64,000 nt of DNA from Victivallaceae bacterium (GCA_021647315.1 JAKIUY010000005.1:1-64000); one strand, 5' to 3'; counted from the first letter of the stretch, positions 7,835 through 62,429 are shown. Numbers and translations: made by a program. Notes: a model not told the origin generated them from the sequence alone.

Positions 7835-7860
7835 TATAACTCCTTGCTTATATAATTGCC

Positions 7861-10800
7861 TCAATCGGCAATCGGTTTCCAGTTTTTTTTACCAAATGAC
7901 TGAAGAATAGCCAATTCACGTTTAATTACCTTAAAAAGATTTTTTCTAACCAGCTTTCTTTTATAATAGGCCTCAATCGCAGTCCTGTCGGGCTGTTTTA
8001 AATGCAGATAATGCATCAGCGTCAGCGGGTCATAGACAGATTTAAGGTAGACGCTGATATTATAACGATTCTCTGCCGGCCATATTTGAGAATAGGGGCG
8101 CATTGCTTCAGGGAAAGCTGAAAGAATATAGGAATGTATCTGATAAGGAGTACTTCTTAGCAGAATAAGATTTTGGGAGAACCCGGCAAATTCATTAAAT
8201 TCAATATACTTCATTTTCAAATCTTTTTCTGTATAGGCCAATGGCACTGAATTTCGATGAGTAAAGCTCCACGGGCGTTGGGCTCTGACATATTTAAAGC
8301 CGGTTACGGCGGCATTGCAGCCAATTAACTGCATCACGGCGAGATAACTGGCATAAGAATAGAGATTTTCATCTTTCATTGACTTAGCCATTCTGGCAAA
8401 TGCGACCAGGCCGGCATAGATTGCGGTCGACTCCTGAAGCCCATTGCCAACTCGGATGCCGCTATATGAATCCCAACAGATACCGATTGCCCAGTCATGA
8501 CTATGCGGAAAAGTATTAAAGAACTTCTTAATCATCGGCCAGTTATTTTTTATATCCTGTGAGCCATCAAGGTAATAGCTATGTTGCCATAGGGCATACA
8601 ACCGTAAAGACATCCAATAGAGAATATCAATACCGTAATAGGCACTACGAGTCGATAACATCATTTTTAAATTATTATTCTGCTCGGTAACTTCAGTAAT
8701 CTGGGGGTTATTCAAATGTTTAGTGAAATTTTTCTTCATCGCCGTTGTCGGGTAACCTTTGTAGAGCAGCGAATCTGTCACCTCTTTTTTAAGTGCTTTA
8801 AGGTATTTGCTTTTCAACGGTTCTTTCATGTAAGGCAGACATAAAACCAAATCAGAAAATTTGTCTTCATAATTAACCTGTGAAGCCAGAAAATCCTGCT
8901 TGCGTTTATAGGCTAATGACCACGGGTGCTGATCGAATTTATATTTAACAAAAGTTGCTTCCAGAGCAATATTTAATTTATCAACGGCAGTCTGGTAACG
9001 CAAATTTGTTATCGGGAAATCGGAATACTGCTGTTCTTCATTAATATAATTCAGGAGATTTTTTATCTGAAAAATATAGGCATCACCTGTAGTAAAACAG
9101 TATGGGCCATGCAGCGTCGTAATTGCCGGATCTATGACCTGACGGTCAAAAGTAATATCAACATTATTGCTGAATGCCGCAGAAAGTAATAAAGTAGGGG
9201 AATGAGGTGCAATTTTCATTCCCTGCGTTCCCCAGTCATCAACTATTGTTCTATACTGAAATTTATCTCTTACCGTCAATAGGTTATTAACAAAATCGGT
9301 TTCAAAAGTTCGTTTTGCAAACAGCGGAAACTCTAACAATGCTTTAGAGAACAATCGACATTTTGCAATCACCGTTTCCGGCAGATTATTTTCCCAATTA
9401 TCAGTATCGTACAATGATATAAGTTTAACCCCCGACAGCGGCATGCCCAATAACGTTCCAGCTCCATTTTTGTTTTTATAACTGAAGACCAAAGCATCCC
9501 GCGTGGTTTTGACCGTTTCGGGTTTATGCTGTAAAACAAACAGCCATGGCACATCAAAACTCTGCCAGTTTTTACTCCCGTTAAACCAGACCAACACCCA
9601 GTTTTCAGCCATATCCCGGCCACTTAAACCAATATCGGCATCAACAATTTTTATTCCTAACTTAGTGGCAAAAGCCATTTTTTCAGGTTGTCCGAGCCCC
9701 CATTCAGCAAGACCTTTAAAAACCTGCAAAGTGGTGGCGGTAGTGTTAACCAGATAAGCCGGCGACAGCGTGCTGATAATAAACTCCAGATTGCTGTCGT
9801 TGTTATAGGTGAATTTATATTGTCTGCTACTCCAATCAGCCTTTTCAACTTTAATCGATTTAAGCTGGTAGTTATCCCCGGCTGATATTGAACCGAATGA
9901 CCATAAATCATTAAATCCATCATATACTCCACCAGCTATTGGTGCACATGACATAGTTCTGAAAGGTTTTTTAGGTGTTGCGCAAACATTATTCTGATAG
10001 ATTAAAATATCGGGTTTATTTTGAAAAATTGTCGCAACGTAGGTTAAAGCCCCCCTGGTATCAAACCGGCCGATTGTATTCGCCAACACCCGCTTTTTAT
10101 TGGGCAGACGGGCCCCGAAATGCCCAAGAGAATCTTTGCTGATATCGTTTTGAACTCTAGACCTTACCGTTCTGCCCGCTAATTCAGGATTGACTTTTAC
10201 TTTTATCTTTTGCGGAGTGCTGGAATATTTAAATTTCACCTTTTGCTGCCAGACAATTTGCTGAGCTTTTTTGATTGTCAACAGAGCACTATAATCACCG
10301 CTTAAGAGTTCAGTGATCATAATTGCCGGTAGCACCGTCCACTCCAGATATTTAAGCTGCCCCGGTTGTTGTGCTTTAAATACCACCTGACGGTTTTTAT
10401 CGGTAACTTTAACCGTAAACACAAACGATTTATTGGCATTTACTAATCCCAAAAACTTAGGTTCTATTCTGATCGGCAAGCGGTCAAACTCATTAAGATG
10501 TTCTGCATCGGTAAAATTGCGATTAACAGCATTTTTCCCAGCACTGTTTATCTGAAAGTCAATTACCGTATCCGCGATTTTAGAAATCATATAGGGGCCA
10601 GCATAGAGCCCCCCCCACGAACCAGGATAAATTTTAATAGCCAAAAGATTTTCCTGGTCAAATTTGATATCTTTGGGATCAACCAAATAGCGCCGTCTGG
10701 TAAAAGAAGAACCCTTAATTGGCTTTCCCGGCGGATGTTTGCCGTAGGTCCCTACCTCTTTACCATTGATAAATACTTTATCGTAAAAAGAGATCGTTCC

Positions 10801-45286: not shown

Positions 45287-45354
45287 GTGTTTCCCGGGAT
45301 CACACCCAGCAATAAAGGCATCCTTTGGATGCAATAAAAAAAAGGAAAATAACT

Positions 45355-47658: not shown

Positions 47659-48221
47659 TTATGAATTATGATTGCAGATTTTTAAAAGTAGGGTGCATCC
47701 GCCCGGTGACGAATTCGCAGCCGGGAGGCTGCTCCCACATTGAGATAACGATAGAACCGACACGATGAATTACACAGCAAATCAGTACAGCACAAATAAT
47801 ATTTTGAAACCAGAACACTCCTTAAATTATAGAATTAAGGAGTAAATATAATGCTGAGTTATGCTGAGTTCTACAAGATGAATTTAAACTTTCTCTGTTT
47901 TTAACAAAGCAATGGAACTTATTTTATAATCATCGGTCAATAGAGAAATAAGATGCTAAATAGATGGTACTCGAAAAACCTTTTAAATTTTCCGCATCGC
48001 GAAAATTAAAGGCTTTTCTCCGCTCCGTTTGTATTAATTTCAAAGAATTTTATTTGAAATCTGGGCATTAAAAATATAGTTCTTACTAGTTTTTAGGCAG
48101 TAATTGGTAAAATAACATGAGAAGTATTTTTAAACTAAAATATTTCTAAAAAAAACAGCCGCAAAATTTTAATTTTAAGCAGCGTCTAAATAGTAAATAA
48201 ATATTGATAAGGAATAGTCAC
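47659..48221. other. Gene-free spacer with several hairpins
   Basis: No ORF supported in ~560 bp. Visible structures: GCAGCC-GGGA-GGCTGC (~47719-47734), ACTCCTTAA/TTAAGGAGT with a 9-nt loop (47817-47843), and a long AT-rich stem around 47980-48015 (AAATTTTC/GAAAATT). Any of them could terminate the upstream gene. Confidence 0.55.
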
Positions 48222-48656
48222 TTGAGCTTCAAGAAAAAAATTATATCTGTCATAATGATGGGACTTTATCTATTGCTATCGACCTATACGTTTGGGAACG
48301 ATACATTTTTGTGTATCAGTAACAGCAGTGTTTCTATTGAAACATCAGTGAATGGTAATTGCGGAATAGATACTTTTAATGCTGTTCCCAATATCGCGAC
48401 CCCGATGACCTATAATAGCTCTACTGACAATTGTGGTCTGTGCATAGATTCCTCCCTGCCCGGCGTCAATAGTAATAATAAAATCGTTAAATACTCAAAA
48501 AAACGGTCTATGGCGGTAAACGCATCGCCCGTTTACGTCTCGCAGCCATATTTTATCTCCCTTGATTTAAAATCAACTGCGAGCAATTTTAAAAGAACAG
48601 CAGCAATAAACCGACTCACCTTAAAAATGCTACGGACTACTGTACTTATCGTCTAA
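48222..48656 (+). CDS. Small secreted Cys-containing protein, unknown
   Basis: 144 aa from a TTG at 48222 that has AAGGAA 7 nt upstream; an in-frame TTG at 48204 overlaps that site. The N-terminus is a signal peptide (KKKIISVIMMGLYLLLSTYTF). The mature part has four Cys, two in CGLCIDSSLPG, and is otherwise Ser/Asn-rich with a basic C-terminus. I recognise no family. Codon use is poor and AT-rich, so it is a weak gene call. Its position ahead of the metal-transport cluster and the CxxC pair would suit a periplasmic metal-binding accessory, but that is guesswork. Confidence 0.5.
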   Translation: MSFKKKIISVIMMGLYLLLSTYTFGNDTFLCISNSSVSIETSVNGNCGIDTFNAVPNIATPMTYNSSTDNCGLCIDSSLPGVNSNNKIVKYSKKRSMAVNASPVYVSQPYFISLDLKSTASNFKRTAAINRLTLKMLRTTVLIV

Positions 48657-48827
48657 AGGCTCGAACCAGCCACGAACAGGGGATAATCAGACGCTGTTCG
48701 AAAAGGTAACCTACTTACATAGCGTTCTCATTCCGACACTAATTAGATGGTGCTCGAAAAGGGTTTCAGGTTCTTTAAAATCAACTGAATAACTCTATCC
48801 TTTGAGCTTGATCTAACCTTTGCTATA

Positions 48828-48851
48828 TGCGCTCGGAGATCGCATGCTACT
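48828..48851 (+). repeat. REP-like palindrome, forward orientation
   Basis: TGCGCTCGGAGATCGCATGC plus TACT, upstream of the parvulin gene. The surrounding 48657-48933 spacer also has a TAGATGGTGCTCGAAAAGG word that recurs near 47961. Confidence 0.8.
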
Positions 48852-48933
48852 TGACTGCCCACTTAAAGTATACTTCATCAAAATCACAGGTTTGGGATTT
48901 TAAAACAAGTTCAATAGGACTATCAGGAATAAA

Positions 48934-51006
48934 ATGACTCACAAATTTACAATTTTTATAATAGTTTCGGCACTGTTACTTTTAATATCCGGGCTTATCG
49001 TGCTTGCTCTCAAAGAAGAGCAGCAGGCAAAACAGCGGGTTGACGTGATAGCCAAACGGATTGGCGATGACGTTGTCGCCACCTATGCGGGTGGTGAAAT
49101 AACCGCCCAGGAACTGCGTGGTTATATAAACAAAATCATGCCGCGTCAAGCTAAACATACCACCTGTAAAAAACATGGTTCCGACCATAAGAAATGCTCC
49201 AGGGATGAAGGCTGCGAAAGCCATCCACTTGATTCCCCGGAGACCTATCGGCTGCTTCTGCAGCGGTTGGTGACGGAGAAGATGCTGAAGCGCTGGATAA
49301 GCGAAAAAGGGATGCTTTCACGCAAAGATGTCACCCACAAGCTTAAACATCTGGTGGAAGAGATCAACCTCAATGTCCTGTCCGGTGAAATGCACTCCGA
49401 CAAGCTCAAGCCGGATCAGGTTGAGATGCGGCAATATTATGAGCAGCGTCGAGATGAATATCAGTCACGTTCGTTTGCTGAAGTTGAGCAGGAGATTGAG
49501 CAGACCCTGATAGCGCAGAAACAGGCGGAGTATATTCCCAAATACATTGAGGAATTAAAGAAGAACGCTGTTATTGAACGCAATTACGAGTTGCTGAAAG
49601 TAGTGCCGCCTACAGACAGTGAAATCAAGAGTTATTACGCTGAAAACCAACGTAAATATACCCGTGCTGAACTGTTGCGGATTAACTATATGGTTTTCCA
49701 GAACGGGGCAGATAAAAAAGTTCAGGCACGGGCCCAAAAAGCACTTGTCAAGATTCGCGCCGGTGGCGACTTCAAGAAGATTGCCGATAAACTGGCAGAC
49801 AGTTCAGCCAAAAGCGAATCTGTAGAGCGGAACAGCCGCACCAAAAGCACCAAGTTTATTGAAACGATGTTTCGTTATCAACAAGGTGAAACGACACCGG
49901 TATTCAAAGATGGCAAGACGCTTTATATTGCGGAAATTGTTGAGCGTCAGGGGAGTGAGATCAAATCGCTTGACGAAGTACGCGGTGAAGTTAAAAAGGT
50001 GGTTTACCTGGCAAAAGAGCGGCAGAAAATGGAACAGAATAAGTATGACGCGCTGTTTTCCATTCAGGGTAAACGTTTCACGGTTGAACAATTCATGGAG
50101 GAGTTTGATGAGCTGACTCCGCAGCAGCAGCAACAATTTGCCAGTTTCAAGGCTAAAAAAAATCTCCTTGACCAACTTGTCGTCAAGGAACTGCTGATCG
50201 AAAAGGCTGAAGATAAAAGTCAGAATAATGAGGCCAGAGCCTATCGTGAAAAGATGAAGCTGACCGCACTCAAGCAGATGCTCCATAAAGAGGAGGTGGA
50301 TGAAGAAATCACCATCTCTGACAAACAGGTCAAAGAGTTTTACGATGATTATAAAAGTCGCCTGATTGAGCCGCAAAAAGCTCAGATAAGCATCATTCGG
50401 GTCGGGATCGGTTTCAGCGAAGATGAACGTAAACGCGGGCGTGCCAAAATTGAGGCGGCGCAGGGAAAACTGCGTACCGGAGCAGACTTTGCAGCGACAG
50501 CCAAAAAATACTCGGAAGACTGGAGTGCCAGCCGCGGGGGTAAACTTGACCGGTGGATTCTTGAAGGCGGCGGTCATCTGGCAGAACGCTATGAGCATGG
50601 GTTCCACCGTTATGTGTTCGCCCTGACACCCGGTGCGGTGAGTGATTTCTTTGAATTTCAGAATAATTACTGGATCATCAAAATGCGTCAGCTGATCGCG
50701 GCGACACCGCAGACCCTGGAACAGGCAAAACCGCAGATCGTCAAGCTACTGCGGGCAGTTCGCCATCAGCAACGGACGAATGAGATGCAGAACAAACTGC
50801 TGGAAAAATCACAGCTGGTCATCCGTGATTTTGTTTTAACGCAGCTGATGGGAGTTGAAGCCCGGGCGCATGCGCAGGAAAAAAACAGTCTTCATCCATC
50901 GGGCTGTTCCCATCAGCAGGCGAGTGGTGGGCATAAACATGGTGCCGGGTGCGGTCATCAGCAGCAGAACGGCGGGTATCTGCATGATGCCGGCTGCGGA
51001 CATTAA
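48934..51006 (+). CDS. Membrane-anchored two-domain parvulin (SurA/PpiD-like) with metal-binding tail
   Basis: 690 aa; AGGAATAAA precedes the ATG. An uncleaved N-terminal helix (FTIFIIVSALLLLISGLIVLAL) anchors it with the rest in the periplasm. A SurA-like N-region contains a Cys/His knot (KHTTCKKHGSDHKKCSRDEGC, ~73-95). Two rotamase-type segments follow: ~225-345 (AELLRINYMVFQNG ... FKKIADKLADSS) and ~470-590 (AQISIIRVGIGFSED ... FAATAKKYSEDWSASRGGKL). The last ~35 residues are a His/Cys/Gly tail with repeated AGCGH-type units, a probable Zn or Cu/Ni binder. The combination of periplasmic chaperone and metal tail, with CDF and P-type ATPase genes downstream, is distinctive. A decayed paralogue is at 55435-56213. 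Confidence 0.83.
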   Translation: MTHKFTIFIIVSALLLLISGLIVLALKEEQQAKQRVDVIAKRIGDDVVATYAGGEITAQELRGYINKIMPRQAKHTTCKKHGSDHKKCSRDEGCESHPLDSPETYRLLLQRLVTEKMLKRWISEKGMLSRKDVTHKLKHLVEEINLNVLSGEMHSDKLKPDQVEMRQYYEQRRDEYQSRSFAEVEQEIEQTLIAQKQAEYIPKYIEELKKNAVIERNYELLKVVPPTDSEIKSYYAENQRKYTRAELLRINYMVFQNGADKKVQARAQKALVKIRAGGDFKKIADKLADSSAKSESVERNSRTKSTKFIETMFRYQQGETTPVFKDGKTLYIAEIVERQGSEIKSLDEVRGEVKKVVYLAKERQKMEQNKYDALFSIQGKRFTVEQFMEEFDELTPQQQQQFASFKAKKNLLDQLVVKELLIEKAEDKSQNNEARAYREKMKLTALKQMLHKEEVDEEITISDKQVKEFYDDYKSRLIEPQKAQISIIRVGIGFSEDERKRGRAKIEAAQGKLRTGADFAATAKKYSEDWSASRGGKLDRWILEGGGHLAERYEHGFHRYVFALTPGAVSDFFEFQNNYWIIKMRQLIAATPQTLEQAKPQIVKLLRAVRHQQRTNEMQNKLLEKSQLVIRDFVLTQLMGVEARAHAQEKNSLHPSGCSHQQASGGHKHGAGCGHQQQNGGYLHDAGCGH

Positions 51007-51030
51007 AACCAACAAGGATAGAGGTATTAA

Positions 51031-52575
51031 ATGAACAGAAAAGAACAAACTCTTATTGTCAGTATCGGTGCGAATTGTGTGCTGATTGCGCTGCGCTTTC
51101 TCCTGGCGTTCATCTCCGGCAGTCTGGCACTCAAAGCCAACGCCTGGCATTCAATGGCGGATATGATTGTCCTTGGGATTGTGCTGACAGGCTTGATTAT
51201 CGCATCGCAGACCAATAATCGTTTCAGAGGGATCATGGCACGGGCGGAACATATTGTGGCAATGATAGTTGCTGTTTTTATTCTCTATATGGGGATTGAT
51301 CTCTTTTTCGAATCACTTTCCGGGGAGATGATTGAATTACGCTATCTCACCTGGGCGGCTCTGGGAGCATTTTTCGGGGTATGCATCACCTACTTCATGG
51401 GGCGTTATATGCTCTATGTGGGACAGAAAGAAAATTCCCCGAGTCTGATTGCGGCCGGTTATCACGCCCGAATGGATATGCTCTGTTCCAGTGCCGTCCT
51501 GATCGGCCTGCTCGGTTCTATATTCGGCATGTCGGGACTGGATAAAATAGCAGCATCAATTGTGGTGATTTTCATCTTTATCGCCGCCATTGAAATATTC
51601 ACGGTAAACCTGAAGGCACTGCGTTCCGGGAAAATTTCGGTGACGGAGCATAATCATCAACATGGTATCGGCAAACCGGGCTGGACAGTAGTGGCAGCAT
51701 TGTCTGCCATCTGTCTCGCCGGTTACTTTGCCTCCGGCATCTATTTTGTTCAGCCTGACGAACAGGCAATTGTCCGCCGATTGGGCAAAATATCCGATAA
51801 GCTGATGGAGCCGGGCATTCACTACCGCTGGCCCTACCCTGTTGAGAGTGTCGATAAGGTAAGTACTTCAACCATTCGTCAGGTGGTCACTCCGCGACGG
51901 CTTATTCTTACCGGCGATGAAACTTTGACCGCAGCCAGTATCGCGGTTCATTTCAGAGTGAAAGATGCCAAACGTTACCTGTTGAGCTCCAGTGCGCCTG
52001 ATCGGATTGTCAAAAATGCCGCTGAATCTGGTCTTCGTGCCGTTATCGGTCGTAATGTTATTGACATTCTGTTGACCACTGGACGGGAAATGGTTGCGAA
52101 TGAAACCCGCGAGGCGCTGCAGCAGGAGCTTGACCGCAATGGGATCGGCGTAGAGGTCATCGGCGTACTAATTCGCGATTTAGCACCGCCGAATGAGGTT
52201 AAGTCGGCATTTCAGGATGTTGCGAGTGCCAGAGAAGACCGGATTACCTATATCAATGAGGCCTACTCTTTTTTTAACGCGCTGGTGCCGGATGCCCGCG
52301 CCAAAGCAGCAGCCCGGCTGCTGTCCGCCGAGGCCTACCGTGATGCTAAAATAGATCGTACCAAAGGTGAATCGGCACGTTTTCTGAAAAAAGTCGAAGC
52401 CTATAGCAAAGGGCGCGATATTACCCGGGTGCGGCTCTATATCGAGGCAATGGAAAAGATATTACCCAATGTCAGAAAGTTTCTGGTCGGATCAAATGTT
52501 GAGACGACCGGAACAGATCTGTGGTTCATCAACAGTAAAACAAAAACACCGTTTAATTTTAATCAACAAAGGTAA
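51031..52575 (+). CDS. Fusion of a CDF cation transporter and an SPFH/HflK-like domain
   Basis: 514 aa; AAGGATAGAGGTATTAA precedes the ATG. Residues ~1-195 are a six-helix cation diffusion facilitator with the two metal motifs HSMAD (in ALKANAWHSMADM) and HARMD (in GYHARMDMLC), matching the HxxxD sites of Zn/Cd/Fe transporters. The usual cytoplasmic CDF C-domain is missing. Instead, after a seventh helix (TVVAALSAICLAGYFASGIYF), residues ~230-500 are an SPFH/band-7 domain of HflK type (FVQPDEQAIVRRLGKISDKL; EPGIHYRWPYP; VASAREDRITYINEAYSFFN). HflK/HflC normally regulate FtsH. Fusion to a metal exporter is unusual. The following two genes are also SPFH proteins. Confidence 0.85.
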   Translation: MNRKEQTLIVSIGANCVLIALRFLLAFISGSLALKANAWHSMADMIVLGIVLTGLIIASQTNNRFRGIMARAEHIVAMIVAVFILYMGIDLFFESLSGEMIELRYLTWAALGAFFGVCITYFMGRYMLYVGQKENSPSLIAAGYHARMDMLCSSAVLIGLLGSIFGMSGLDKIAASIVVIFIFIAAIEIFTVNLKALRSGKISVTEHNHQHGIGKPGWTVVAALSAICLAGYFASGIYFVQPDEQAIVRRLGKISDKLMEPGIHYRWPYPVESVDKVSTSTIRQVVTPRRLILTGDETLTAASIAVHFRVKDAKRYLLSSSAPDRIVKNAAESGLRAVIGRNVIDILLTTGREMVANETREALQQELDRNGIGVEVIGVLIRDLAPPNEVKSAFQDVASAREDRITYINEAYSFFNALVPDARAKAAARLLSAEAYRDAKIDRTKGESARFLKKVEAYSKGRDITRVRLYIEAMEKILPNVRKFLVGSNVETTGTDLWFINSKTKTPFNFNQQR

Positions 52576-52579
52576 TGGC

Positions 52580-52714
52580 AAAAGTCCAATGCGGGCATGA
52601 TTTTTAGAGTTCTGAGCGAGTAACTCCGCACCTAAATGTTCTCATTTAGGTGCGGGGCAAAAGATGCCGTCCAACATTAAAAATCTATCGTAGAAACTTT
52701 TGCAATTGCCTCAA
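52580..52714 (-). repeat. Dispersed ~150-bp repeat, copy B
   Basis: Reverse-orientation match to 1279-1435. Its centre is a very strong hairpin at 52626-52655: a 13-bp perfect stem CCGCACCTAAATG with loop TTCT. It lies inside the cluster between the CDF-SPFH and HflC-like genes and could attenuate or process the transcript. Confidence 0.75.
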
Positions 52715-52743
52715 CAACAACACCATCAAGGAGATGATTTATT

Positions 52744-53685
52744 ATGGAAACAAAACAACATGGCTGGATAAAATGGGTATTGGGTATTGGATTTTTAACC
52801 TTGGTTTTCATTATGAGCAATTTGGTATTGTTTATAGTTGACACTACGCAGTATGCCGTGGTTACGCAGTTTGGCAAACCGGTGAAAACCATTCTCACGC
52901 CGGGGCTGCATTTAAAGTTGCCGGAACCGGTGCAAAGTGTGCAGTTTTATGATAATCGGCTGCACGTTTATGAAGCAGGTGAAGTAGAATTTTTGACCAA
53001 AGACAAGAAGAGTGTAGTGATTGATTACTATGGAGCCTGGAAAATCAAGGAGCCACTGGAATTCATGAAAACGGTTAAGGACAAAGTCGGCGCGGAGTCA
53101 AGACTGGCAGATATTTTCAGTTCTGCAATCGGCGTCTATATCGGACGCTACGAGCTGGCGGAACTGGTTAATACGGACGCAGCGAAAATGAAGCTGCATA
53201 AAATGCTGGTTGAGATTATGAATGAATGCAACCGCCGGACTGCAGGCTACGGTATTGAGGTGGTAAATGTCGAAATGAGACGGCTCAATTTCCCGGAGAA
53301 AAACAAACTCTCCGTCTTCAGGCGCATGAAAGCTGAACGTGAACAGATTGCCCGTAAATACCGTTCAGAAGGCAGTGAAGAGGCGGTTAAAATCAGGGCG
53401 GCAGCCAAGAAAGAGCAGAAACTGATTTTGTCTGAAGCATATAAACAGGCGGAAATTATCCGCGGTGAAGGTGACGCAGAGGCGATCCGACTCTACGCCG
53501 AAGCATTTCAGAAAGATCCCGGTTTTTATAAATTTATCCGTACGCTGGCGGCCTATGAAAAAATAATTGATGATAAAACAACCGCGATATTGCCGGCGGA
53601 CTCGCAGCTGATGCGACTCTTCGGTGAAGGATCAGGTTCAGCTGGTGTCCTGCTGCCCGCAACTCGCAAGGAGGTGACTAAATGA
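52744..53685 (+). CDS. SPFH/band-7 protein, HflC-like
   Basis: 313 aa with AAGGAGATGATTTATT before the ATG. One N-terminal helix (~10-35, WVLGIGFLTLVFIMSNLVLFIV) then a band-7 domain (YAVVTQFGKPVKTILTPGLHLKLPEPVQSV), as in HflC, followed by an alpha-helical segment (KLSVFRRMKAEREQIARKYRS; EGDAEAIRLYAEAFQKDPGF), the HflC-type C-terminal signature. Size and motifs match E. coli HflC. Topology is N-in with the bulk periplasmic. It overlaps the next gene by 4 bp (ATGA). No ftsH is nearby, so this copy may serve the metal cluster rather than the housekeeping FtsH complex. Confidence 0.88.
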   Translation: METKQHGWIKWVLGIGFLTLVFIMSNLVLFIVDTTQYAVVTQFGKPVKTILTPGLHLKLPEPVQSVQFYDNRLHVYEAGEVEFLTKDKKSVVIDYYGAWKIKEPLEFMKTVKDKVGAESRLADIFSSAIGVYIGRYELAELVNTDAAKMKLHKMLVEIMNECNRRTAGYGIEVVNVEMRRLNFPEKNKLSVFRRMKAEREQIARKYRSEGSEEAVKIRAAAKKEQKLILSEAYKQAEIIRGEGDAEAIRLYAEAFQKDPGFYKFIRTLAAYEKIIDDKTTAILPADSQLMRLFGEGSGSAGVLLPATRKEVTK

Positions 53686-54659
53686 GCGATGGCCATAAAA
53701 GTATTTTAAGTGACATCGGCAACGCGTTCGGCCACCTCAATTTCGGGCTGATTTGCTCCCTGCTGCTGATTGTTGGAATCGGGTTGTATCTGATGACCGG
53801 ATTTTATACCGTTGCTCCCGGCGAACAGGGGGTGGTTAAACGTCTGGGGAAGGTGGTTAAAACGGTTGATTCCGGAGCCAATTATCGGCTTCCATGGCCG
53901 TTTGAGTCAGTGGAAGTTGTCAATGTGGGAAAAATACGCCGCGCGGAGGTGGGCTTACTGCTTGAAGAGCATGATCATCAGGCATTCATGCAGGAAAACA
54001 TCCAGTTGATGACCGGGGACGAAAATGTCATCAATGTCGAGGCCATTGTGCATTATAAAATAAAAGATGCCGCCCGTTATCTCTATCAAGTGAATTTCAG
54101 CGAAGAACGCCTGCTGCACAATGCGGTTGCCTCTTCATTGGTTGAACTCATCGGTCAGGTGGGTGTCGATGACATCCTGACCACCCGGAAAATTGCGGCG
54201 CAGGGGAAAATTCTCCAGGAGGCGCAGCGGGTGCTGGATAAATATGACAGCGGTCTCCAGATCACAGCATTCAATATTAAAGCCATTGTGCCGCCGCGCG
54301 AAGTGGCTGATGCCTTTCGGGATGTGATGACAGCCCGGGAGGACAAGGAGCAGTCTATAAACCAGGCCATGGGGTATCGTAACAGCGTAATTCCTGAAGC
54401 CAGAGGCAAGGCGCGAGAAATGGTCAGTGAAGCTGAAGGTTACCGTACTGAAGTAGAAAATGAGGCAACAGGCGATTCGACCCGGTTTGAGAGTATGCTG
54501 GCTGAATACCGCAGGAATTCAAAAATTTATTCTGAAGATGTGACGCGTTACCGGCTTTATCTGGAAACCATGGAAAGAATCCTGCCACGGGTCAGAAAAT
54601 ATGTTTTACGCGCGACTGATAATAAAAAGATAAATTTGAAATTTGTCGAAAATCAATAG
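53682..54659 (+). CDS. SPFH/band-7 protein, HflK-like
   Basis: 325 aa; AAGGAGGTGACTAA sits inside the end of the HflC-like gene. One N-terminal helix (~20-45, GLICSLLLIVGIGLYLMTGFYT), then band-7 (VAPGEQGVVKRLGKVVKTVD; YRLPWPFESVEVVNVGKIRR), ending in the HflK-type helical tail (FRDVMTAREDKEQSINQAMG; YRLYLETMERILPRVRKYVL). It is similar to the SPFH half of the CDF fusion at 51031, so the cluster has two HflK-type and one HflC-type subunit. They probably assemble into a membrane cage, as HflKC does. Confidence 0.88.
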   Translation: MSDGHKSILSDIGNAFGHLNFGLICSLLLIVGIGLYLMTGFYTVAPGEQGVVKRLGKVVKTVDSGANYRLPWPFESVEVVNVGKIRRAEVGLLLEEHDHQAFMQENIQLMTGDENVINVEAIVHYKIKDAARYLYQVNFSEERLLHNAVASSLVELIGQVGVDDILTTRKIAAQGKILQEAQRVLDKYDSGLQITAFNIKAIVPPREVADAFRDVMTAREDKEQSINQAMGYRNSVIPEARGKAREMVSEAEGYRTEVENEATGDSTRFESMLAEYRRNSKIYSEDVTRYRLYLETMERILPRVRKYVLRATDNKKINLKFVENQ

Positions 54660-54668
54660 GAGGCATTA

Positions 54669-54833
54669 ATGTTACAGATTTTTCAAATGTTACTCTGGGG
54701 ATTTTCAACTTTTATGTTCGTGGCTTCGCTGATTTTACTGGTCAAGTCAATCCGGCTGCTCAGACGTGTCGAACAGATGCGTGAGTTACAATATAAACAG
54801 TTAACCAGTTCAAAGGAGGTGAATGATGGATAA
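54669..54833 (+). CDS. Small single-helix membrane protein (54 aa)
   Basis: Reads MLQIFQMLLWGFSTFMFVAS then LILLVKSIRLLRRVEQMR and a polar tail ending VNDG. AGGAGGCATTA, beginning just after the HflK-like stop, is a strong Shine-Dalgarno. One hydrophobic helix (~5-25) is followed by a basic amphipathic stretch. Its end overlaps the next small gene by 8 bp. It is a previously unannotated-looking subunit of the SPFH cluster; no family recognised. Confidence 0.7.
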   Translation: MLQIFQMLLWGFSTFMFVASLILLVKSIRLLRRVEQMRELQYKQLTSSKEVNDG

Positions 54834-54969
54834 AGTCGGTGCTATTTTAACCGGTATCGGAGCTTTAATCGTTGGTGTCGGAGTACTCGTCGTTATGTTA
54901 CGCACGGGTAGTCTGATTGATTCGATTTCGGAGAGCTTAAGCGTTTCGCGGAACGCTGAATCTGAATAA
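54826..54969 (+). CDS. Small single-helix membrane protein (47 aa)
   Basis: Reads MDKVGAILTGIGALIVGVGV then LVVMLRTGSLIDSISESL and a polar tail. AAGGAGGTGAATG precedes it inside the previous gene. A Gly-rich helix (~5-24) plus an amphipathic tail resembles the small protein at 55112, suggesting a related pair. Confidence 0.7.
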   Translation: MDKVGAILTGIGALIVGVGVLVVMLRTGSLIDSISESLSVSRNAESE

Positions 54970-55111
54970 GGATTTACTCAAAAACAGGTTGGATTTATTT
55001 TTGCGTGAGCCCTGAGATCTATAAAAAAACGATGTTTTTTTATATTAATAATCCGTACGAAATATGGCCAAATGGCATTTCGTGCAAACTAGACTTAATA
55101 GGAGAAATATT

Positions 55112-55243
55112 ATGTCAAATATTCCTGATATTCTTAACAGCATAGCTTCGCTGTTAGTCGCTGTAGGTGCGGTCGTTCTGTTGCTTAAAACCAGTACCTT
55201 GATTACAACGCTGTCTGAACAGATTAAAAAATGGAAGGATTAA
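55112..55243 (+). CDS. Small single-helix membrane protein (43 aa)
   Basis: Reads MSNIPDILNSIASLLVAVGA then VVLLLKTSTLITTLSEQI and a KKWKD end. AGGAGAAATATT precedes the ATG. The pattern LL(V)AVGAVVLLLKTSTLI is like GVGVLVVMLRTGSLI of the 47-aa protein, so the two are probably paralogues. The 142-bp gap before it holds a word (ACAGGTTGGATTT) shared with the 4478 inverted repeat. Confidence 0.7.
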   Translation: MSNIPDILNSIASLLVAVGAVVLLLKTSTLITTLSEQIKKWKD

Positions 55244-55434
55244 ATTCAGTCAAGCAGTGTCTGGACGGCTCACGTTCCGTAGCGTTTCACAACGCAATCA
55301 ACTGTTCGGTCTTGACCGTTCAGGCACAAATTAATTAGACCCTATTTGAAAAGGTCGCTAGATAATGTTTTTTTCTTAGTCCAATGTCATGTGTTCAAGG
55401 ACTAGAGCTACAATGACAAAACTCGAATTGAATA

Positions 55435-56213
55435 ATGAACATTGAAAATAATAGTAAAGCAGGCTGGCTCGCCAGAACAATAAAGGGCGGTTATGTTAGA
55501 ACCGCAGTAGTGCTGCTCATCGGGCTGGCTTTTTACTGGACGGTGATCAGGCTGCCCCGTCCGCCGGCAGATAATATTGTGGCTACTTATCGTGGCGGCA
55601 ATGTTACAACCGAAGAGTTGCGAGTCTATATACATGATTTCATAGCATGCTGCTCAAAACATACCAGCTGCAGCCGTCACGGCGAAAACCATGAAGAATG
55701 CAGCAGCAGTTAAAGCTGTTAAATGGACTGATAGACCGCATGGTATTAGTGTCAAAGGCCGACGAAAAAGTGCCAGGCAAAAAACAGCGCAGGCAGTATG
55801 AAGGTATCCGCCGCACTGTACTGCGACAACTGTTGCATCAGGAGGATGTAGATGCCCGGGATGTCGCAAAAACGGGGGGGAAAGTAGAACCGTGGATAAG
55901 CGAAACCGATGATGCCTTGCGTGAAATGCTGTCCCACGGATTTCATAAAAATACCCTTAAACTTAAAAAAGGTGAACTCAGTAAGGTCTTTCAGATTGAC
56001 AATGACTTTTATATCGTTATGGTACGACAAAGAGAAGCCGCCAAGAATAAAACATTTCAAGCAGTACGCAATAAAGCAAGAGCGGATCTTGAAGCCAGCC
56101 GCCATGAGAAGTTGACCTATAAAATGGAAACAGCTCTGCTGAAACAGGCGAAAGTTAAAATATATAATTACACTATTATAAATATGGTTAAAGCCGACAA
56201 ATCTACCGGTTAA
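55435..56213 (+). pseudogene. Frameshifted, internally deleted parvulin (paralogue of 48934)
   Basis: Frame 1 (55435-55713) encodes a membrane helix and a segment matching the intact protein: NIVATYRGGNVTTEELRVYI, then CCSKHTSCSRHGENHEEC, against VVATYAGGEITAQELRGYI and the TCKKHGSDHKKC knot. It stops at CSSS. Frame 2 (55698-56213) resumes with LLNGLIDRMVL and LRQLLHQEDVD, then jumps to the end of the second rotamase domain (EPWISETDDALREMLSHGFH; FYIVMVRQREA). The first rotamase domain, part of the second and the His tail are missing. There is no Shine-Dalgarno at 55435. The frame-2 part could still be expressed from 55698, but no complete domain remains. Confidence 0.75.
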
Positions 56214-56229
56214 AAATAAGGAATGAGCA

Positions 56230-58629
56230 GTGAAACATCAACATAACCACAATTGTAAACACGAACATCAGCCGTCTGATGGAGTAGCTGATACCGGACA
56301 TCAACATACCGCAGACTGCAATCATGACCACGCCGCGCCTAAACAGAACAGCGGCTGCACCCACGACCATGGCGCGCATAAACACGGTAGTAGCTGTAAT
56401 CATGACCACAGCGCAGTCGCCAGCTCCAGCAGTGAACCTTTATCGTCCAATCAAACAGCATATAAAGTTTTTGGTCTGGATTGTCCCGAGGAGATTGCGA
56501 TCCTGAATAAAGAGGTCGGAAAAAAACCGGGAATTGTAAAACTTGATTTTGATATCCTCAACGCCAAGATGACCGTTACCATCGAACCGGGCACCAGCGG
56601 CAATGATGATATAATCGCCGCCGTCGCCGCCGGTGGCATGCGGGCGGTACTTTGGGACGAATGGCTCTCAAATGATGATCAGGAGACTTTTTGGCAGCAA
56701 CACGGGCGAACGATTACGACGATAATAAGCGGGATGTTGCTGGTCACCGGATTCGGCATTCACTGGTATCTGCACGGTAGTTTCATGGAGGCATTTGTCG
56801 CCGGCGATGATGGCAAAGAACATATCTTCCCGCTCAGTTCAATTGTCCTCTACTGCATTGCGATTATTGCTGGCGGCTGGTTTGTCGCCCCTAAGGCACT
56901 GGGTGCATTACGCAGACTACGGCTGGATATGAATTTCCTCATGGTGGTGGCGGTGGTCGGTGCTATTATAATCGGTGAATGGTTTGAAGCCACAACAGTT
57001 ACCTTTCTCTTTTCGCTTTCACTCTTACTCGAACATTGGAGTATCGGCCGCGCCCAGCGCGCCGTTACCGCACTCATGGATTTAGCCCCGGCGGTTGCTC
57101 GTTATCGCTGTCCCCATGATGGCGACATTATGGAAGTTCCAGTTGCAGAGGTACCCCTTGGGGTCAACGTGCTGGTGCGCCCCGGCGAAAAAATACCGCT
57201 TGACGGTGAAGTTACCACCGGCAGTTCCGGCGTCAATCAGGCACCGATTACCGGTGAATCCGTTCCCGTATTCAAAGAGGCGGGGGATGAGGTTTTTGCC
57301 GGAACCATCAATGAAAACGGCTCTTTTGAGTTTAAAGTTACCAAACTGGCAACCGACACCACACTGGCGCGGATAATTCAGATGATTCAGGAGGCGCGTT
57401 CCCGCCGTGCAAGCAGTGAACAATGGGTCGAGACGTTCGCCAAGTATTATACCCCGGCCATGATTCTGTTTTCTCTGCTTATCATGCTCGTACCACCATT
57501 ACTGTTTTCCGCCTTATGGGTGGAGTGGATTTATCGCGGCCTGGTTATTCTGGTCATCGCCTGTCCCTGCGCCTTGGTTATATCCACCCCGGTCAGTATC
57601 GTTTCCGGCTTGACTGCAGCCGCAAGAAACGGCGTGCTGATCAAAGGCGGAATGTATCTTGAACTGATTGGCCAAATCCGTGCCCTGGCAATGGACAAAA
57701 CCGGCACCTTGACCTTCGGACACCCCGAAGTTCAAACTATTATTCCCCTGAATGGACATTCACGTCAAGAGCTGCTTGAACGGGCTGCCGCGCTTGAGGC
57801 GCATAGTGAACATCCACTGGCACGAGCTGTATTGCGCTGTGCGGAAACGGAACAGGTTGAGGTGAAAATGGTGGCGGAAAACTTTCAGGCCGTCAAAGGC
57901 AAGGGAGCTGAAGCTGATATTGACGGGCGGAAATTCTGGATCGGCAGCCATCGTTTTATGGAGGAAAAAGGTGAGGAGACACCGGAAATTCATCAACGGG
58001 CACAACTGCTTGAAGATGAAGCTCATTCGGTGATCGCTATCGGTAATGAGGATCATGTCTGCGGTCTGATCAGTGTCGCTGACGGGGTTCGCCCGGCGGC
58101 GAGTGTGGCCGTCGCCAATATGAAACGGCTGGGATTGGAACGGCTAACGGTTTTAACCGGCGATAATGCCGGAACCGGCAATGCGGTCGGCGCAGTTGTC
58201 GGCATTGAAGACATCCGGACGGAACTGTTACCGGAAGATAAGGTAGCGGGAGTAGAAGAGCTGGTCGAAAAATATGAGAAGGTGGCAATGATCGGCGACG
58301 GCGTCAATGATGCTCCAGCGATGGCGGTCGCCAGCCTGGGAATTGCCATGGGGGCTATCGGCTCCGACGTCGCTATCGAAACCGCTGACATCGCGCTGAT
58401 GGCGGATGACCTGAATACGCTGCCGTGGCTGATTAGCCATTCACGCCGGACGTTGAATATCATTAAACAGAATATCTGGTTCGCCCTCGGTCTGAAAGTT
58501 GTCTTTATGGCGTTGGCGATGACAGGCATGGCAACATTGTGGATGGCCATAGTCGCCGATACCGGAGCTTCGTTGTTAGTCATTTTCAACGCGTTACGTC
58601 TCTTAAAATCATCTCACAACAAGGAATAA
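56230..58629 (+). CDS. P1B-2-type Zn/Cd/Pb-translocating ATPase with His-rich N-terminus
   Basis: 799 aa from a GTG with AAGGAATGAGCA upstream. Residues 1-60 have repeated His/Cys metal-binding clusters (HNHNCKHEHQ; CTHDHGAHKHGSSCNHDH). Residues ~75-140 are an HMA fold whose usual CxxC is DCPEE (GLDCPEEIAILNKEVG), a known variant. The ion-binding CPC is at 445-447 (ACPCALVISTPVS), the phosphorylated Asp489 in MDKTGTLTFG, with HSEHPLA and GDGVNDAPA present. The last helix has DTGASLLVIFNALRLL, the Asp typical of the Zn/Cd/Pb subgroup. It exports divalent soft metals across the inner membrane. The M16 peptidase gene starts 1 bp after its stop. Confidence 0.93.
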   Translation: MKHQHNHNCKHEHQPSDGVADTGHQHTADCNHDHAAPKQNSGCTHDHGAHKHGSSCNHDHSAVASSSSEPLSSNQTAYKVFGLDCPEEIAILNKEVGKKPGIVKLDFDILNAKMTVTIEPGTSGNDDIIAAVAAGGMRAVLWDEWLSNDDQETFWQQHGRTITTIISGMLLVTGFGIHWYLHGSFMEAFVAGDDGKEHIFPLSSIVLYCIAIIAGGWFVAPKALGALRRLRLDMNFLMVVAVVGAIIIGEWFEATTVTFLFSLSLLLEHWSIGRAQRAVTALMDLAPAVARYRCPHDGDIMEVPVAEVPLGVNVLVRPGEKIPLDGEVTTGSSGVNQAPITGESVPVFKEAGDEVFAGTINENGSFEFKVTKLATDTTLARIIQMIQEARSRRASSEQWVETFAKYYTPAMILFSLLIMLVPPLLFSALWVEWIYRGLVILVIACPCALVISTPVSIVSGLTAAARNGVLIKGGMYLELIGQIRALAMDKTGTLTFGHPEVQTIIPLNGHSRQELLERAAALEAHSEHPLARAVLRCAETEQVEVKMVAENFQAVKGKGAEADIDGRKFWIGSHRFMEEKGEETPEIHQRAQLLEDEAHSVIAIGNEDHVCGLISVADGVRPAASVAVANMKRLGLERLTVLTGDNAGTGNAVGAVVGIEDIRTELLPEDKVAGVEELVEKYEKVAMIGDGVNDAPAMAVASLGIAMGAIGSDVAIETADIALMADDLNTLPWLISHSRRTLNIIKQNIWFALGLKVVFMALAMTGMATLWMAIVADTGASLLVIFNALRLLKSSHNKE

Positions 58630-58630
58630 T

Positions 58631-61546
58631 ATGTTGATAAAAAAGATGCCAGTAATGCTGCTTGCTCTGCTGTTCGCCAGTGCCATTCAGCCAAAACTTC
58701 AGGCACAGGCGTGGTTTAAACCGACTGATGCGGTAAAAAAAGATCCAACCAAAACCATTATTCATACGCTGAAGAATGGACTTAAAGTATATATAAGCGT
58801 TAATAAAACCCAACCGCGGATTCAGACGATGATCGCAGTTCGCGCGGGCTCTAAATATGACCCCGCCGCAACCACCGGTCTGGCACATTATCTCGAACAT
58901 CTGATGTTTAAGGGGACGCGTCGCATCGGCACCAAAAACTGGCAGGCTGAAAAAAAATATCTTGATAAAATTGCCGTTAAGTTTGAAGAGCATAAGAATG
59001 CCAAATCGCCGGCGGCAAAAAAACAGCTCTATAAAACTATTGATAAACTCTCCTACGCGGCATCAAAGTTTGCCATCGCCAATGAATATGATAAGATGGT
59101 CTCATCATTGGGTGCCAAAGGTACCAATGCCTTTACCGCTAATGATATGACGGTTTACATGAATGATATCCCGGCCAACGAACTGAAAAAATGGCTGATG
59201 CTTGAACGGGAACGTTTCAGCACCCTGGTACTTAGACTGTTTCATACTGAACTGGAAACCGTCTATGAGGAATTTAACCGCACCCAGGATAATGATCGAC
59301 GCAAGGTCTTTAATAACGTGTTGAAAGGGCTCTTCCCGAACCATCCCTACGGCATGCAGACAACTATCGGCAAAGGTGAACACCTCAAAAACCCTTCAAT
59401 GTATAATATTCAACAGTATTTCGCGACCTATTACCGGCCGAATAATATTGCCATCTGCCTCTCCGGCGACCTTGAACCGGATAAAACCATTGCCTTGGTC
59501 GAACAGTATTTCGGTGACTGGCAAGCTGCTCCGCTACCGGCGTTCAAACAGCCGCAAGACAGTCCGTTGACGAAACCGGTTATCATGAAAAGTTATGGAC
59601 CGCAACCGGCGATGGTCTATATCGGTTATAAATTCAAGGGGGCGGGGAGTAAAGAGGCGCTGATGCTTGAAGTAATTGACATGCTGTTGGCCAACTCACA
59701 GGCAGGCTTGATTGACCTAGATCTGAATTTGACCCAGAAAGTTCTGGCGGCTGGCTCTTTTCCCTATATTCTGGATGATTATTCAGTGCATTTTCTTTAT
59801 GGCATGCCCAAACGGAACCAAACTGTTGAAACGGTGAAAGCGTTACTGCTGCAAGAAATCGAGAAGATAAAAAATGGTGAATTTGATGATTGGCTGGTCG
59901 AGGCGGTGATAAATAATCTGAAACTTGAGCGGATTAAAACTATAGAGAAGAATCGCGGCCGGGGATTTTTAATGGTCAATGCATTTATTTTCAACTTGAA
60001 CTGGAATGATTATATTAATAAATATGAACACCTGGAGCAGTTGACGAAAAAAGATATTCTCGATTTCGCCAATAAATACTATCAGGATAACTACGTTGTA
60101 TCCTATAAATTGCGGGGCAAAGGCAGCAAATATACCATGCCTAAACCTGAAATCACCCAGCTTGAACTGGATCGGAAATCAACCTCCGTGTTTTTTAATG
60201 AATTTGCCCAAATAGACTCAGCCCCGATTAAACCACAGTTTACCGATTTCGCTAAAGATATTACCAGGACTGAAATCAACAAGGTCGCATTTTCTGCAAT
60301 CAAAAACCGCCAGAATGAGCTGTTCAGTTTAACCTACATTTTCCCGATGGGAACTGATAACGGCAAACTGCTGCCGCTGGCGATAACCTACCTGCCATAT
60401 TTAGGCACCGCAAAATACAGTGCCAGACAACTTAAACAGCAGTTTTTCAGATTAGGCTTGAAATTCAGCGTCAGCATCTCCAGAGATCAACTATATGTGA
60501 AACTGTCAGGCTTGAACAAAAACCTTAAACCGGGCGTTAAGCTGTTGGAACATCTATTGGCAAATGTCGTTCCTGATGCTAAAGCTTATAAAAATTTGGT
60601 CGGCACTATTCTGAAGTCACGCGCCAATGCAAAACTGAATAAATCGACGATTTTAAGGCAGGGTTTGATCAGTATGGCTAAATACGGCATGGAGAGTCCA
60701 TTCAGAGACAAATTGAGCACAAAACAGTTAGCAGCTATGGATATAAATAAGCTCACCGCATCAATACGACAGTTGACCAAATTTAAGCACCAGATATTTT
60801 ATTACGGTCCTGATGCGACTGGAATCGTTGCGAAAACATTAACCGCCGAGCATGCTGTCCACGCCGCCTGGTTGCCGGTACCGTCAAAGAAAATTTACCC
60901 CAAGCAGCAATTCGTCGCCCCGAAAGTATACTATGTCCCTTATGACATGCAGCAGGTTGAGATATTCTTTCTCGCTTCAGATATAAAATTTGATCCTGAA
61001 CTCCTGGCTGTATCGCAGCTGTTTAACGAATATTTCGGTGCCGGTTTATCCTCTATCACCTTTCAGGAAATAAGAGAAAAACGTGCCCTTGCCTATAGTG
61101 CCTACTCCTGGTACTCAAATGCAAGAAAAAAAGAGGATGAAAATTATCTGCTGGCCTATGTCGGGACTCAAAGTGACAAATTGCCAAATGCCGTTGCGGC
61201 GATGATGACTGTTTTGAATAAGATGCCGCAGGCCGAGCTACAATTTAATGCCGCCAAAGCAGCCCTGCTGAAAAAAATTGCCTCATCCAGGGTGACCGGC
61301 GAAGCGATATTCTGGCAGTATGAGGCCGCGAAGAAACGGGGCTTGGATTATGACATCAACCGCAAAGTTTATGAGCGGGTCAAGACCCTGGCGCTGACTG
61401 ACTTGAATGATTTTTTTCAAACCCATATCAAAGGCAAAAAATATGCGCTTTGCGTCATGGGCAATGAGCGCAATATCAAACTTGAAACATTGAAAAAAAT
61501 GGGCAAATTCAAAAAATTCACCCTGCGTGAACTGTTCGGTTATTAA
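58631..61546 (+). CDS. Secreted M16-family zinc metallopeptidase
   Basis: 971 aa; AAGGAATAAT bridges the ATPase stop. Signal peptide to ~28 (LLALLFASAIQPKLQAQA). The inverted zinc motif HYLEH gives His86, Glu89 and His90, and the distal Glu is in ELETVYEEFNRTQDND. Two M16 repeats: residues ~40-260 and ~300-500, then an inactive second half (~530-960; TYIFPMGTDNGKLLP; EIREKRALAYSAYSWYSN). This is the ~100-kDa single-chain (pitrilysin-like or BamD-region) size class. An insertion after the zinc motif (KYLDKIAVKFEEHKNAKSP) is rich in Lys. Periplasmic proteolysis of peptides or of metal-damaged proteins is plausible. It is followed by a strong hairpin. Confidence 0.9.
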   Translation: MLIKKMPVMLLALLFASAIQPKLQAQAWFKPTDAVKKDPTKTIIHTLKNGLKVYISVNKTQPRIQTMIAVRAGSKYDPAATTGLAHYLEHLMFKGTRRIGTKNWQAEKKYLDKIAVKFEEHKNAKSPAAKKQLYKTIDKLSYAASKFAIANEYDKMVSSLGAKGTNAFTANDMTVYMNDIPANELKKWLMLERERFSTLVLRLFHTELETVYEEFNRTQDNDRRKVFNNVLKGLFPNHPYGMQTTIGKGEHLKNPSMYNIQQYFATYYRPNNIAICLSGDLEPDKTIALVEQYFGDWQAAPLPAFKQPQDSPLTKPVIMKSYGPQPAMVYIGYKFKGAGSKEALMLEVIDMLLANSQAGLIDLDLNLTQKVLAAGSFPYILDDYSVHFLYGMPKRNQTVETVKALLLQEIEKIKNGEFDDWLVEAVINNLKLERIKTIEKNRGRGFLMVNAFIFNLNWNDYINKYEHLEQLTKKDILDFANKYYQDNYVVSYKLRGKGSKYTMPKPEITQLELDRKSTSVFFNEFAQIDSAPIKPQFTDFAKDITRTEINKVAFSAIKNRQNELFSLTYIFPMGTDNGKLLPLAITYLPYLGTAKYSARQLKQQFFRLGLKFSVSISRDQLYVKLSGLNKNLKPGVKLLEHLLANVVPDAKAYKNLVGTILKSRANAKLNKSTILRQGLISMAKYGMESPFRDKLSTKQLAAMDINKLTASIRQLTKFKHQIFYYGPDATGIVAKTLTAEHAVHAAWLPVPSKKIYPKQQFVAPKVYYVPYDMQQVEIFFLASDIKFDPELLAVSQLFNEYFGAGLSSITFQEIREKRALAYSAYSWYSNARKKEDENYLLAYVGTQSDKLPNAVAAMMTVLNKMPQAELQFNAAKAALLKKIASSRVTGEAIFWQYEAAKKRGLDYDINRKVYERVKTLALTDLNDFFQTHIKGKKYALCVMGNERNIKLETLKKMGKFKKFTLRELFGY

Positions 61547-61554
61547 ATCCAAAC

Positions 61555-61579
61555 CCCAAACCGGCGATGCCGGTTTGGG
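61555..61579 (+). terminator. Strong hairpin after the metal/SPFH cluster
   Basis: CCCAAACCGGC-GAT-GCCGGTTTGGG, an 11-bp perfect stem starting 9 bp after the M16 stop, followed by A-rich rather than T-rich DNA on this strand. It probably ends the transcript or protects the 3' end. Its core is the CCGGC repeat family. Confidence 0.7.
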
Positions 61580-61819
61580 AAAGCAAAAAAAACACGCCCG
61601 GAGGACGGAGCATTGAAAATGGCTCCCTAAAAGGGAGTAATACCATCCTGCTAAAATTAATAGTTACAGTGCTCCAGAGCTCAGCATCGCTGTCTACTTG
61701 AACGCCCTGTTTAGGACTGAAAGTCCGATATATATTAGCCCAGAGCAATGCCCTGGGAACCCGTCCACCAAAGAAAACAGCTCTGAAAGAGCGCCCCGAG
61801 GTGTCCTCCCGCCAAAATC
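61580..61819. repeat. Array of short hairpins in a GC-rich intergenic element
   Basis: Four compact stems in ~170 bp: CTCCCT-AAA-AGGGAG (61623-61637), GGACT-GAA-AGTCC (61714-61726), CCCAG-N9-CTGGG (61739-61757) and GCTCT-GAA-AGAGC (61780-61792). The spacing and GAA triloops look organised rather than random. No ORF. Confidence 0.75.
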
Positions 61820-62110
61820 TTATCCGTTCTTCTTTGCTCCTTTTATTTCTTCGCCTTTTACAATATCTCTGTAAAGTGCAGCCATTAATTGACGTGCCAT
61901 AGCAACGATTGCCGTTTTTCGTTGCCGTCCTTTCTGTTTTAGCTGCTTCGACCATTTTTTTGTTATTTCAGAATCCGGCTGCCAGTGATACCACAGCCAG
62001 GCTAATTAAATTGCTAATCGGCGTAACTCAGTATTTCCTTGATCAATTCCTACGGTAAGGTGGTTTGACAGTTGACTTTCATACGTAATTGCGTTAGTGT
62101 TTAATAACAT
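61820..62110 (-). pseudogene. Decayed IS110-family-like transposase, C-terminal part
   Basis: One minus-strand frame reads LTVGIDQGNTELRRLAI, an in-frame TAA, LAWLWYHWQPDSEITKKWSK and then GRQRKTAIVAMARQLMAALY to a stop at 61820. This is the typical C-terminal helix set of IS110/IS116-type transposases. No N-terminal DEDD domain is found and a stop interrupts it, so it is inactive. The rest to 62429 shows no gene. Confidence 0.75.
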
Positions 62111-62429
62111 GAGCTTTCCCTTTGTATGTTGCCAGTGCATATGACGTTGAATGTGGGTTTGCAGGAGTAGCTGATCTCCCGCATCAAAAAAAGATTTTCA
62201 ACAATACCCTGCCTTGCAATTATAGATTCAAAGGTTATTTTTAACTATGAAATCGCAACTCTCTAGATAAAAGCATTTAAACTAATATTATTTTAGAGCC
62301 AAAGTAGCTTTACAGTGGTGGTTTTATTATAATCGTTGGAGTTAATATTTAGCCGTTAAAGTTTTTGAGTTTAATCGGCATTTAAAATAAATAAATTTTA
62401 CCTGCTACGGGCATAGAGGAGAAAACGTT

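Follow-up and report, generated by a model that had tools for sequence, protein, structure and literature searches.

A CDF-HflK fusion in a gene cassette found in several phyla suggests an SPFH membrane microcompartment for metal exporters

Gene content of the locus

We analysed a 64,000-nucleotide stretch of DNA from a Victivallaceae bacterium (GCA_021647315.1, JAKIUY010000005.1:1-64000), here called the window, which corresponds to contig C11 in a genome bin of 4.86 Mb and 94% completeness. Its plus strand carries a gene cluster built around a fusion protein in which a zinc-type cation diffusion facilitator (CDF) exporter precedes the SPFH protein HflK. The fusion gene forms a trio with genes for HflC and a second, unfused HflK, accompanied by genes for parvulins, tiny membrane proteins and a P1B-2 ATPase. 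Similar cassettes occur in several bacterial phyla, other HflK proteins carry unrelated metal exporters at the same end, and we propose that such cassettes build SPFH membrane microcompartments for metal exporters.

An earlier note, made from the sequence alone, had named the colinear plus-strand genes of this cluster, and Pfam and NCBIfam matches recover all of them in the same order. The membrane-anchored two-domain parvulin ParvA (48,934-51,006; Rotamase_2, Rotamase and Rotamase_3) precedes the CDF::HflK fusion (51,031-52,575; Cation_efflux and Band_7). HflC (52,744-53,685) and the second HflK (53,682-54,659) follow, scoring 205 bits in TIGR01932 (cut-off 134.4) and 235 bits in TIGR01933 (cut-off 159.4), so that the HflC- and HflK-like assignments of the note hold, as does that of the fusion. 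Next come three single-transmembrane proteins: s1 (54 residues; 54,669-54,833), s2 (about 47 residues and, by alignment, a paralogue of s3; 54,823-54,969) and s3 (43 residues; 55,112-55,243), the last of which starts at the ATG at 55,112 rather than at 55,064 as first read. Among the eight closely related cassettes described below, which we term tight, s1 and s3 are in place in all and s2 is recognised in seven; s3 is 49-79% identical to its orthologues. None of the three proteins has a Pfam match above cut-off, and kinship with DUF2065 was rejected, as this family is not matched even at an E-value of 10. The unit continues with a parvB pseudogene (55,435-56,213), a P1B-2 (Zn/Cd/Pb-type) ATPase with a His/Cys-rich N-terminus (56,230-58,629; TIGR01512, 506 bits against 313.5) and an M16 peptidase (58,631-61,546; Peptidase_M16), and ends in the strong hairpin already noticed (61,555-61,580; -21.2 kcal/mol).

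The spacing of the genes had been taken as a sign of co-translation. The HflC and HflK genes overlap by 4 bp, an arrangement kept in all four loci measured; the 1-bp spacing lies between the ATPase and M16 genes, a link that is not conserved. The gap between the fusion and HflC genes is 168 bp in the window as against 25-41 bp in relatives, and it holds a hairpin (52,624-52,658; -26.9 kcal/mol). This hairpin (within 52,600-52,662) is absent from the relatives; contig C68 carries a related copy, which suggests that the hairpin may represent a small repeat element. Other larger gaps separate s2 from s3 (142 bp) and s3 from the broken parvulin gene (191 bp), and the remaining adjacent genes are closely spaced. 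The GC content at third codon positions (GC3) of the cluster genes is 0.50-0.55, compared with a mean of 0.408 (standard deviation 0.027, maximum 0.456) for 19 other genes of the window; the M16 gene, at 0.50, also falls in the higher range.

A CDF exporter fused to HflK

Residues 8-197 of the fusion protein match Cation_efflux over the full length of the family (101 bits, cut-off 26.6), and residues 237-489 are HflK (TIGR01933, 219 bits, equivalog cut-off 159.4). The zinc-type CDF site consists of an HxxxD motif on both the second and the fifth transmembrane helix. Both motifs are intact in the fusion (H40xxxD44 and H145xxxD149), and the four residues H40, D44, H145 and D149 are invariant across seven orthologues. 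Pfam finds Cation_efflux and Band_7 alone in the protein, with no cytosolic C-terminal (ZT_dimer) domain of the CDF type. Hydropathy and an AlphaFold model give a layout of six helices, a His-bearing linker, a seventh helix and an SPFH fold, and a Foldseek search with this model retrieves E. coli HflK/C (E 8e-16) and the zinc exporter YiiP (E 1.8e-5). Since the C-terminus of a CDF domain is cytosolic and one further helix follows, the SPFH domain is predicted to be periplasmic, like that of HflK.

HflC and the second HflK each have the single transmembrane anchor typical of the HflK/HflC pair; in the fusion, six CDF helices precede the SPFH anchor. SPFH proteins have been stated to possess a single membrane segment throughout (PMC12407830), a rule that such fusions break.

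Parvulins, ATPase and M16 peptidase

ParvA has a transmembrane segment at residues 7-25, and its parvulin domains and exported, anchored topology are those of a parvulin chaperone, with a fold that matches SurA, PrsA and CBF2. It is 56-64% identical to six orthologues. Cys/His metal motifs had been described at both ends of the protein. The N-terminal one, H-x2-C-x2-H-x3-H-x2-C-x5-C-x2-H, is conserved, with H75, C78, H81, H85, C88, C94 and H97 invariant in seven orthologues; the His/Cys C-terminal tail is seen in this genome only. The second parvulin, rightly recognised as decayed, survives as an N-terminal (55,435-55,713) and a C-terminal fragment (55,698-56,213), which are out of frame and have lost the middle of the gene. 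The fragments align to the corresponding ends of ParvB, a conserved protein with a Cys/His motif similar to that of ParvA, which is full-length in three relatives (L053, 665 residues; L055, 666; L056, 673). In L054, a SurA-like parvulin takes the place of ParvB.

The ATPase carries the IACPCAL (CPC) motif followed by the Lys and Asp of the last transmembrane helices, as befits the P1B-2 family to which it had been assigned. It belongs to most copies of the cassette and is 58-63% identical to the ATPases of L054, L056, L057 and L124. The M16 peptidase, which had been counted as part of the module, was rejected as a core member: its gene adjoins none of the five other cassettes in which an ATPase was found, and a search at E 1e-20 returned no homologue in six of the seven other cassette genomes and a single weak one (32%). 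It is therefore treated as a local addition.

The cassette in other genomes and its horizontal transfer

Three of 289 sampled genomes of the phylum contain the full fusion. A narrow-pattern scan of 84,980 species genomes yielded six tight orthologues (one in Lentisphaerae, one in Kiritimatiellota, three in Planctomycetota and one in Nitrospiraceae); a Planctomycetota sample added one tight cassette (G461), and a Nitrospirota sample added none. The order ParvA, fusion, HflC, HflK and tiny transmembrane proteins is kept in all tight cassettes, with ParvB and the ATPase variable; in Nitrospiraceae, an insertion of two unrelated genes separates ParvA from the fusion. The ATPase follows the cassette in L054, L056, L057 and L124, and the contigs of L053 and L055 end too early to show it. 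This conservation of gene order across phyla rules out chance clustering. Thus, the conserved module anticipated by the earlier note, with exporters, SPFH proteins, parvulins and tiny membrane proteins, does exist in several phyla, and with the fusion as anchor its parts co-occur, the ATPase mostly so and the M16 peptidase not.

Cassette proteins are 55-76% identical across Lentisphaerae/Kiritimatiellota, four Planctomycetota genomes and one Nitrospiraceae genome. The FtsH of the window genome shares 65% identity with that of an order relative (G230), 57% with that of G114 and 46-54% with those of Planctomycetota and Nitrospirota. By comparison, cassette HflC proteins, 66-76% identical among orthologues, show 71% identity to G230, 66% to G114, 71-76% to Planctomycetota and 68% to Nitrospiraceae. 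These patterns, together with GC3, indicate that the cassette most likely moved horizontally between phyla. A vehicle for such transfer is seen in Aquibium oceanicum, whose conjugative plasmid NZ_CP018172.1 bears a divergent cassette: its fusion shows 40.6% identity across 97% of the length, and HflC, HflK, a parvulin and a P1B ATPase are encoded with it, adjoining copper genes and a two-component system. The reading frame of the plasmid parvulin (L060, 17,649-18,140) breaks after VVATFEG, close to a run of G. CDF::HflK trios of greater divergence were found in G331 and G732.

HflK fused to other metal exporters

Inspection of HflK-like proteins with long N-terminal extensions revealed that the N-terminal fusion partners of HflK include members of at least three superfamilies of unrelated metal exporters, namely CDF, P1B ATPase and SO_0444 Cu/Zn permease, a generalisation that the earlier note had not made. 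P1B ATPase::HflK proteins are encoded in L035, L036, L048, L127, L128 and L142, and HflK fused to an ArsP_1-type permease in L126, L129, L130-L133 and L138-L140; all six of the latter fusions tested exceed the NCBIfam cut-off of the SO_0444 Cu/Zn efflux family. Wherever the locus is complete, the fusion gene opens a trio that continues with HflC and HflK. A literature search limited to open-licence papers found no description of transporter-HflK fusions. In three Planctomycetota loci, SO_0444::HflK is immediately preceded by a gene for a ZIP zinc transporter (L133, 655-1545; L138, 3-770; L139, 8004-8861), so that two kinds of metal transporter are paired beside one SPFH trio.

A further six-transmembrane domain, here called X, is fused to HflK on contig C20 of the window genome and in L038-L043, L136, L137, L143 and L149, mostly with a P1B ATPase beside it. 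The C20 locus is the genome's second trio (G000:C20:5100-11275, L071) and encodes X::HflK, HflC, HflK and then a P1B ATPase with a His-rich N-terminus and the last-helix motif LHTLST, unlike the cassette ATPase. We considered whether X may be a divergent CDF, for which a profile comparison gave 80-92% probability, but the alignment depends on hydrophobic helices and the shared pre-SPFH helix, and X lacks HxxxD.

Among 145 sampled genomes of the phylum, at least 55 have an open reading frame of 580 residues or longer that matches HflK, most of these matches not being inspected singly. In a tree of 79 SPFH sequences (quick search, SH-aLRT only), sequences group by trio type with 16 changes as compared with 59 after shuffling of labels. 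A single origin of all fusions was also considered; by its starred branches this short-search tree tentatively calls for at least two SO_0444 origins or swaps.

Flanking genes

Directly 5' of parvA, the window encodes a putative secreted Cys-rich small protein (48,204-48,656, plus strand), an optional member with no Pfam family. Small open reading frames at the same position in the window, L057 (6047-6709) and L058 (7098-7835) share an LRTT(V/I)LxV-like C-terminal ending and weak homology (E 2e-4). In L053 (Planctomycetota) the corresponding place is taken by an M56/BlaR1-type protein (6710-7909), a possible regulator. Further upstream in the window, 45,325-47,658 encodes a 777-residue protein composed of two similar halves. 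By eye, both halves bear a ferredoxin-like Cys cluster, and the protein has only a weak Fer4_16 match. Just 3' of the cluster, frames on the minus strand at 61,830-62,140 resemble, by eye, a C-terminal remnant of an IS110-type transposase.

Proposed mechanism and alternative explanations

We propose that the cassette, acquired by horizontal transfer, builds an HflK/HflC-type SPFH membrane microcompartment with metal exporters as its cargo, a reading to which we give a probability of slightly above one half (about 0.55). The CDF domain, being covalently part of one HflK subunit, would sit in the wall of the ring, its cytosolic C-terminal domain replaced by the His-bearing linker, the seventh helix and the periplasmic SPFH domain. 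Zn2+ would then be exported through the two-His, two-Asp site into the space beneath a periplasmic dome. HflC and the second HflK would complete the ring, and the tiny transmembrane proteins are probably packed into the ring itself or into its lipid. For the P1B-2 ATPase, whose relatives are themselves fused to HflK, confinement within or next to the ring is probable, and the two membrane-anchored Cys/His parvulins could serve, on the side where metal leaves, as metal buffers or as chaperones that respond to metal.

Fusion of two genes is strong evidence for joint action of the same partners where they are encoded separately. As P1B ATPases occur both fused to HflK and as neighbours of trios with another fused domain, the ATPase of the cassette is most likely a working partner of the SPFH ring. 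Transporters as SPFH cargo also have precedent, because stomatin domes encapsulate aquaporin-1 and UT-B (PMC12407830) and HflK/C encloses FtsH (PMC13220708).

Several observations weigh against this proposal. Confidence in the AlphaFold model of the fusion is low (pLDDT 57). The ATPase is not adjacent to the cassette in L058 and is thus not obligatory, and the Aquibium plasmid parvulin, with its broken frame, lacks the Cys/His motif, so this motif is not essential to the module. Moreover, the HflK residues that contact FtsH in E. coli are partly kept in the trio HflKs, and the genome contains no unfused HflK-HflC pair besides its two trios. The last two points suit an unlikely alternative, in which the trio is the organism's HflKC and still cages FtsH, the fused exporter supplying or removing Zn2+ for this zinc protease or making the cage metal-responsive. 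The genome encodes one FtsH, on contig C35, and R141 and R185 of E. coli HflK are often conserved in trio HflKs. However, none of the cassettes includes ftsH, as the earlier note had remarked of the window; the genome's second trio could also serve FtsH. Use of R141, E142 and R185 as a test of FtsH binding proved uninformative: the phylum's canonical HflKs also lack two of the three, so that the presence of these residues says little.

Somewhat less likely still is a simple metal-resistance island, in which the CDF and the P1B-2 ATPase work independently, as CdfX and CadA of Cupriavidus do (PMC11580412), and the SPFH part only stands in for the CDF C-terminal domain, as a tag for dimerisation or stability. 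The functioning of CDFs without a cytosolic domain, such as CdfX, the foreign GC3 and the horizontal transfer fit this explanation, but it leaves unexplained why HflC and the second HflK are constantly retained and why P1B ATPases and SO_0444 permeases end in this HflK tail too, again within such a trio. Envelope quality control, with parvulins and SPFH proteins repairing metal-damaged periplasmic or membrane proteins and export as one arm, is improbable: two Cys/His-motif parvulins in several cassettes and the SurA-like substitute for ParvB in L054 speak for it, but the cassettes have no conserved protease, the M16 peptidase being local, and we recognised no conserved parvulin next to the other transporter::HflK trios inspected. 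The parvulins nevertheless make the coupling of export to protein quality control, suggested in the earlier note, plausible; between the two, an SPFH compartment for metal exporters is the better-supported reading.

More tentatively, SPFH rings may be a general chassis for metal-export nanocompartments, in which at least three exporter superfamilies serve as covalent wall subunits discharging into a closed periplasmic dome, spread horizontally as cassettes, including on conjugative plasmids. Metal in the dome would perhaps serve sequestration or client loading.

To our knowledge, FtsH is the best-known cargo of bacterial SPFH cages, and for most such cages no cargo is known. Fusions of HflK with metal exporters of three unrelated kinds identify a second class of cargo without recourse to a binding assay and suggest that the cages can hold metal exporters besides a protein-degrading enzyme. 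The systems are compact, and one resides on the plasmid of a named strain, so that cage function can be tested through metal tolerance and structure. If metal does enter an enclosed periplasmic dome, this would amount to a new way of handling metal.

Comparison with known systems

Like E. coli HflK/HflC, which act with FtsH, the cassette proteins reach HflK/HflC equivalog scores and have a periplasmic SPFH domain after a transmembrane helix, and in E. coli, too, a gene for a small membrane protein (DUF2065) follows hflKC. In contrast to E. coli, the first HflK of the cassette has six extra zinc-type exporter helices, there are three SPFH genes, and the operon contains a metal exporter and parvulins instead of ftsH. 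Stomatin cages (PMC12407830) are likewise SPFH oligomers around transport-protein cargo, an arrangement that for the cassette is proposed from its genes; their cargo is non-covalent and their dome cytosolic, whereas the cassette transporter is fused and its dome would be periplasmic.

The CDF domain resembles YiiP, ZnT and Cupriavidus CdfX in its six transmembrane helices with HxxxD on the second and fifth, and CdfX also lacks a cytosolic domain, but in the cassette a seventh helix and an SPFH domain stand in place of the C-terminal domain, within an SPFH trio. The ATPase shares with ZntA and CadA the CPC motif, the Lys and Asp of the last helices and a metal-binding N-terminus; it differs in being encoded with an SPFH trio and in having relatives of another P1B subtype fused to HflK. 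Finally, the cassette parvulin has two parvulin domains and a membrane anchor in common with SurA, PpiD and PrsA, and is set apart from them by its conserved N-terminal Cys/His motif and by an operon shared with a metal exporter.

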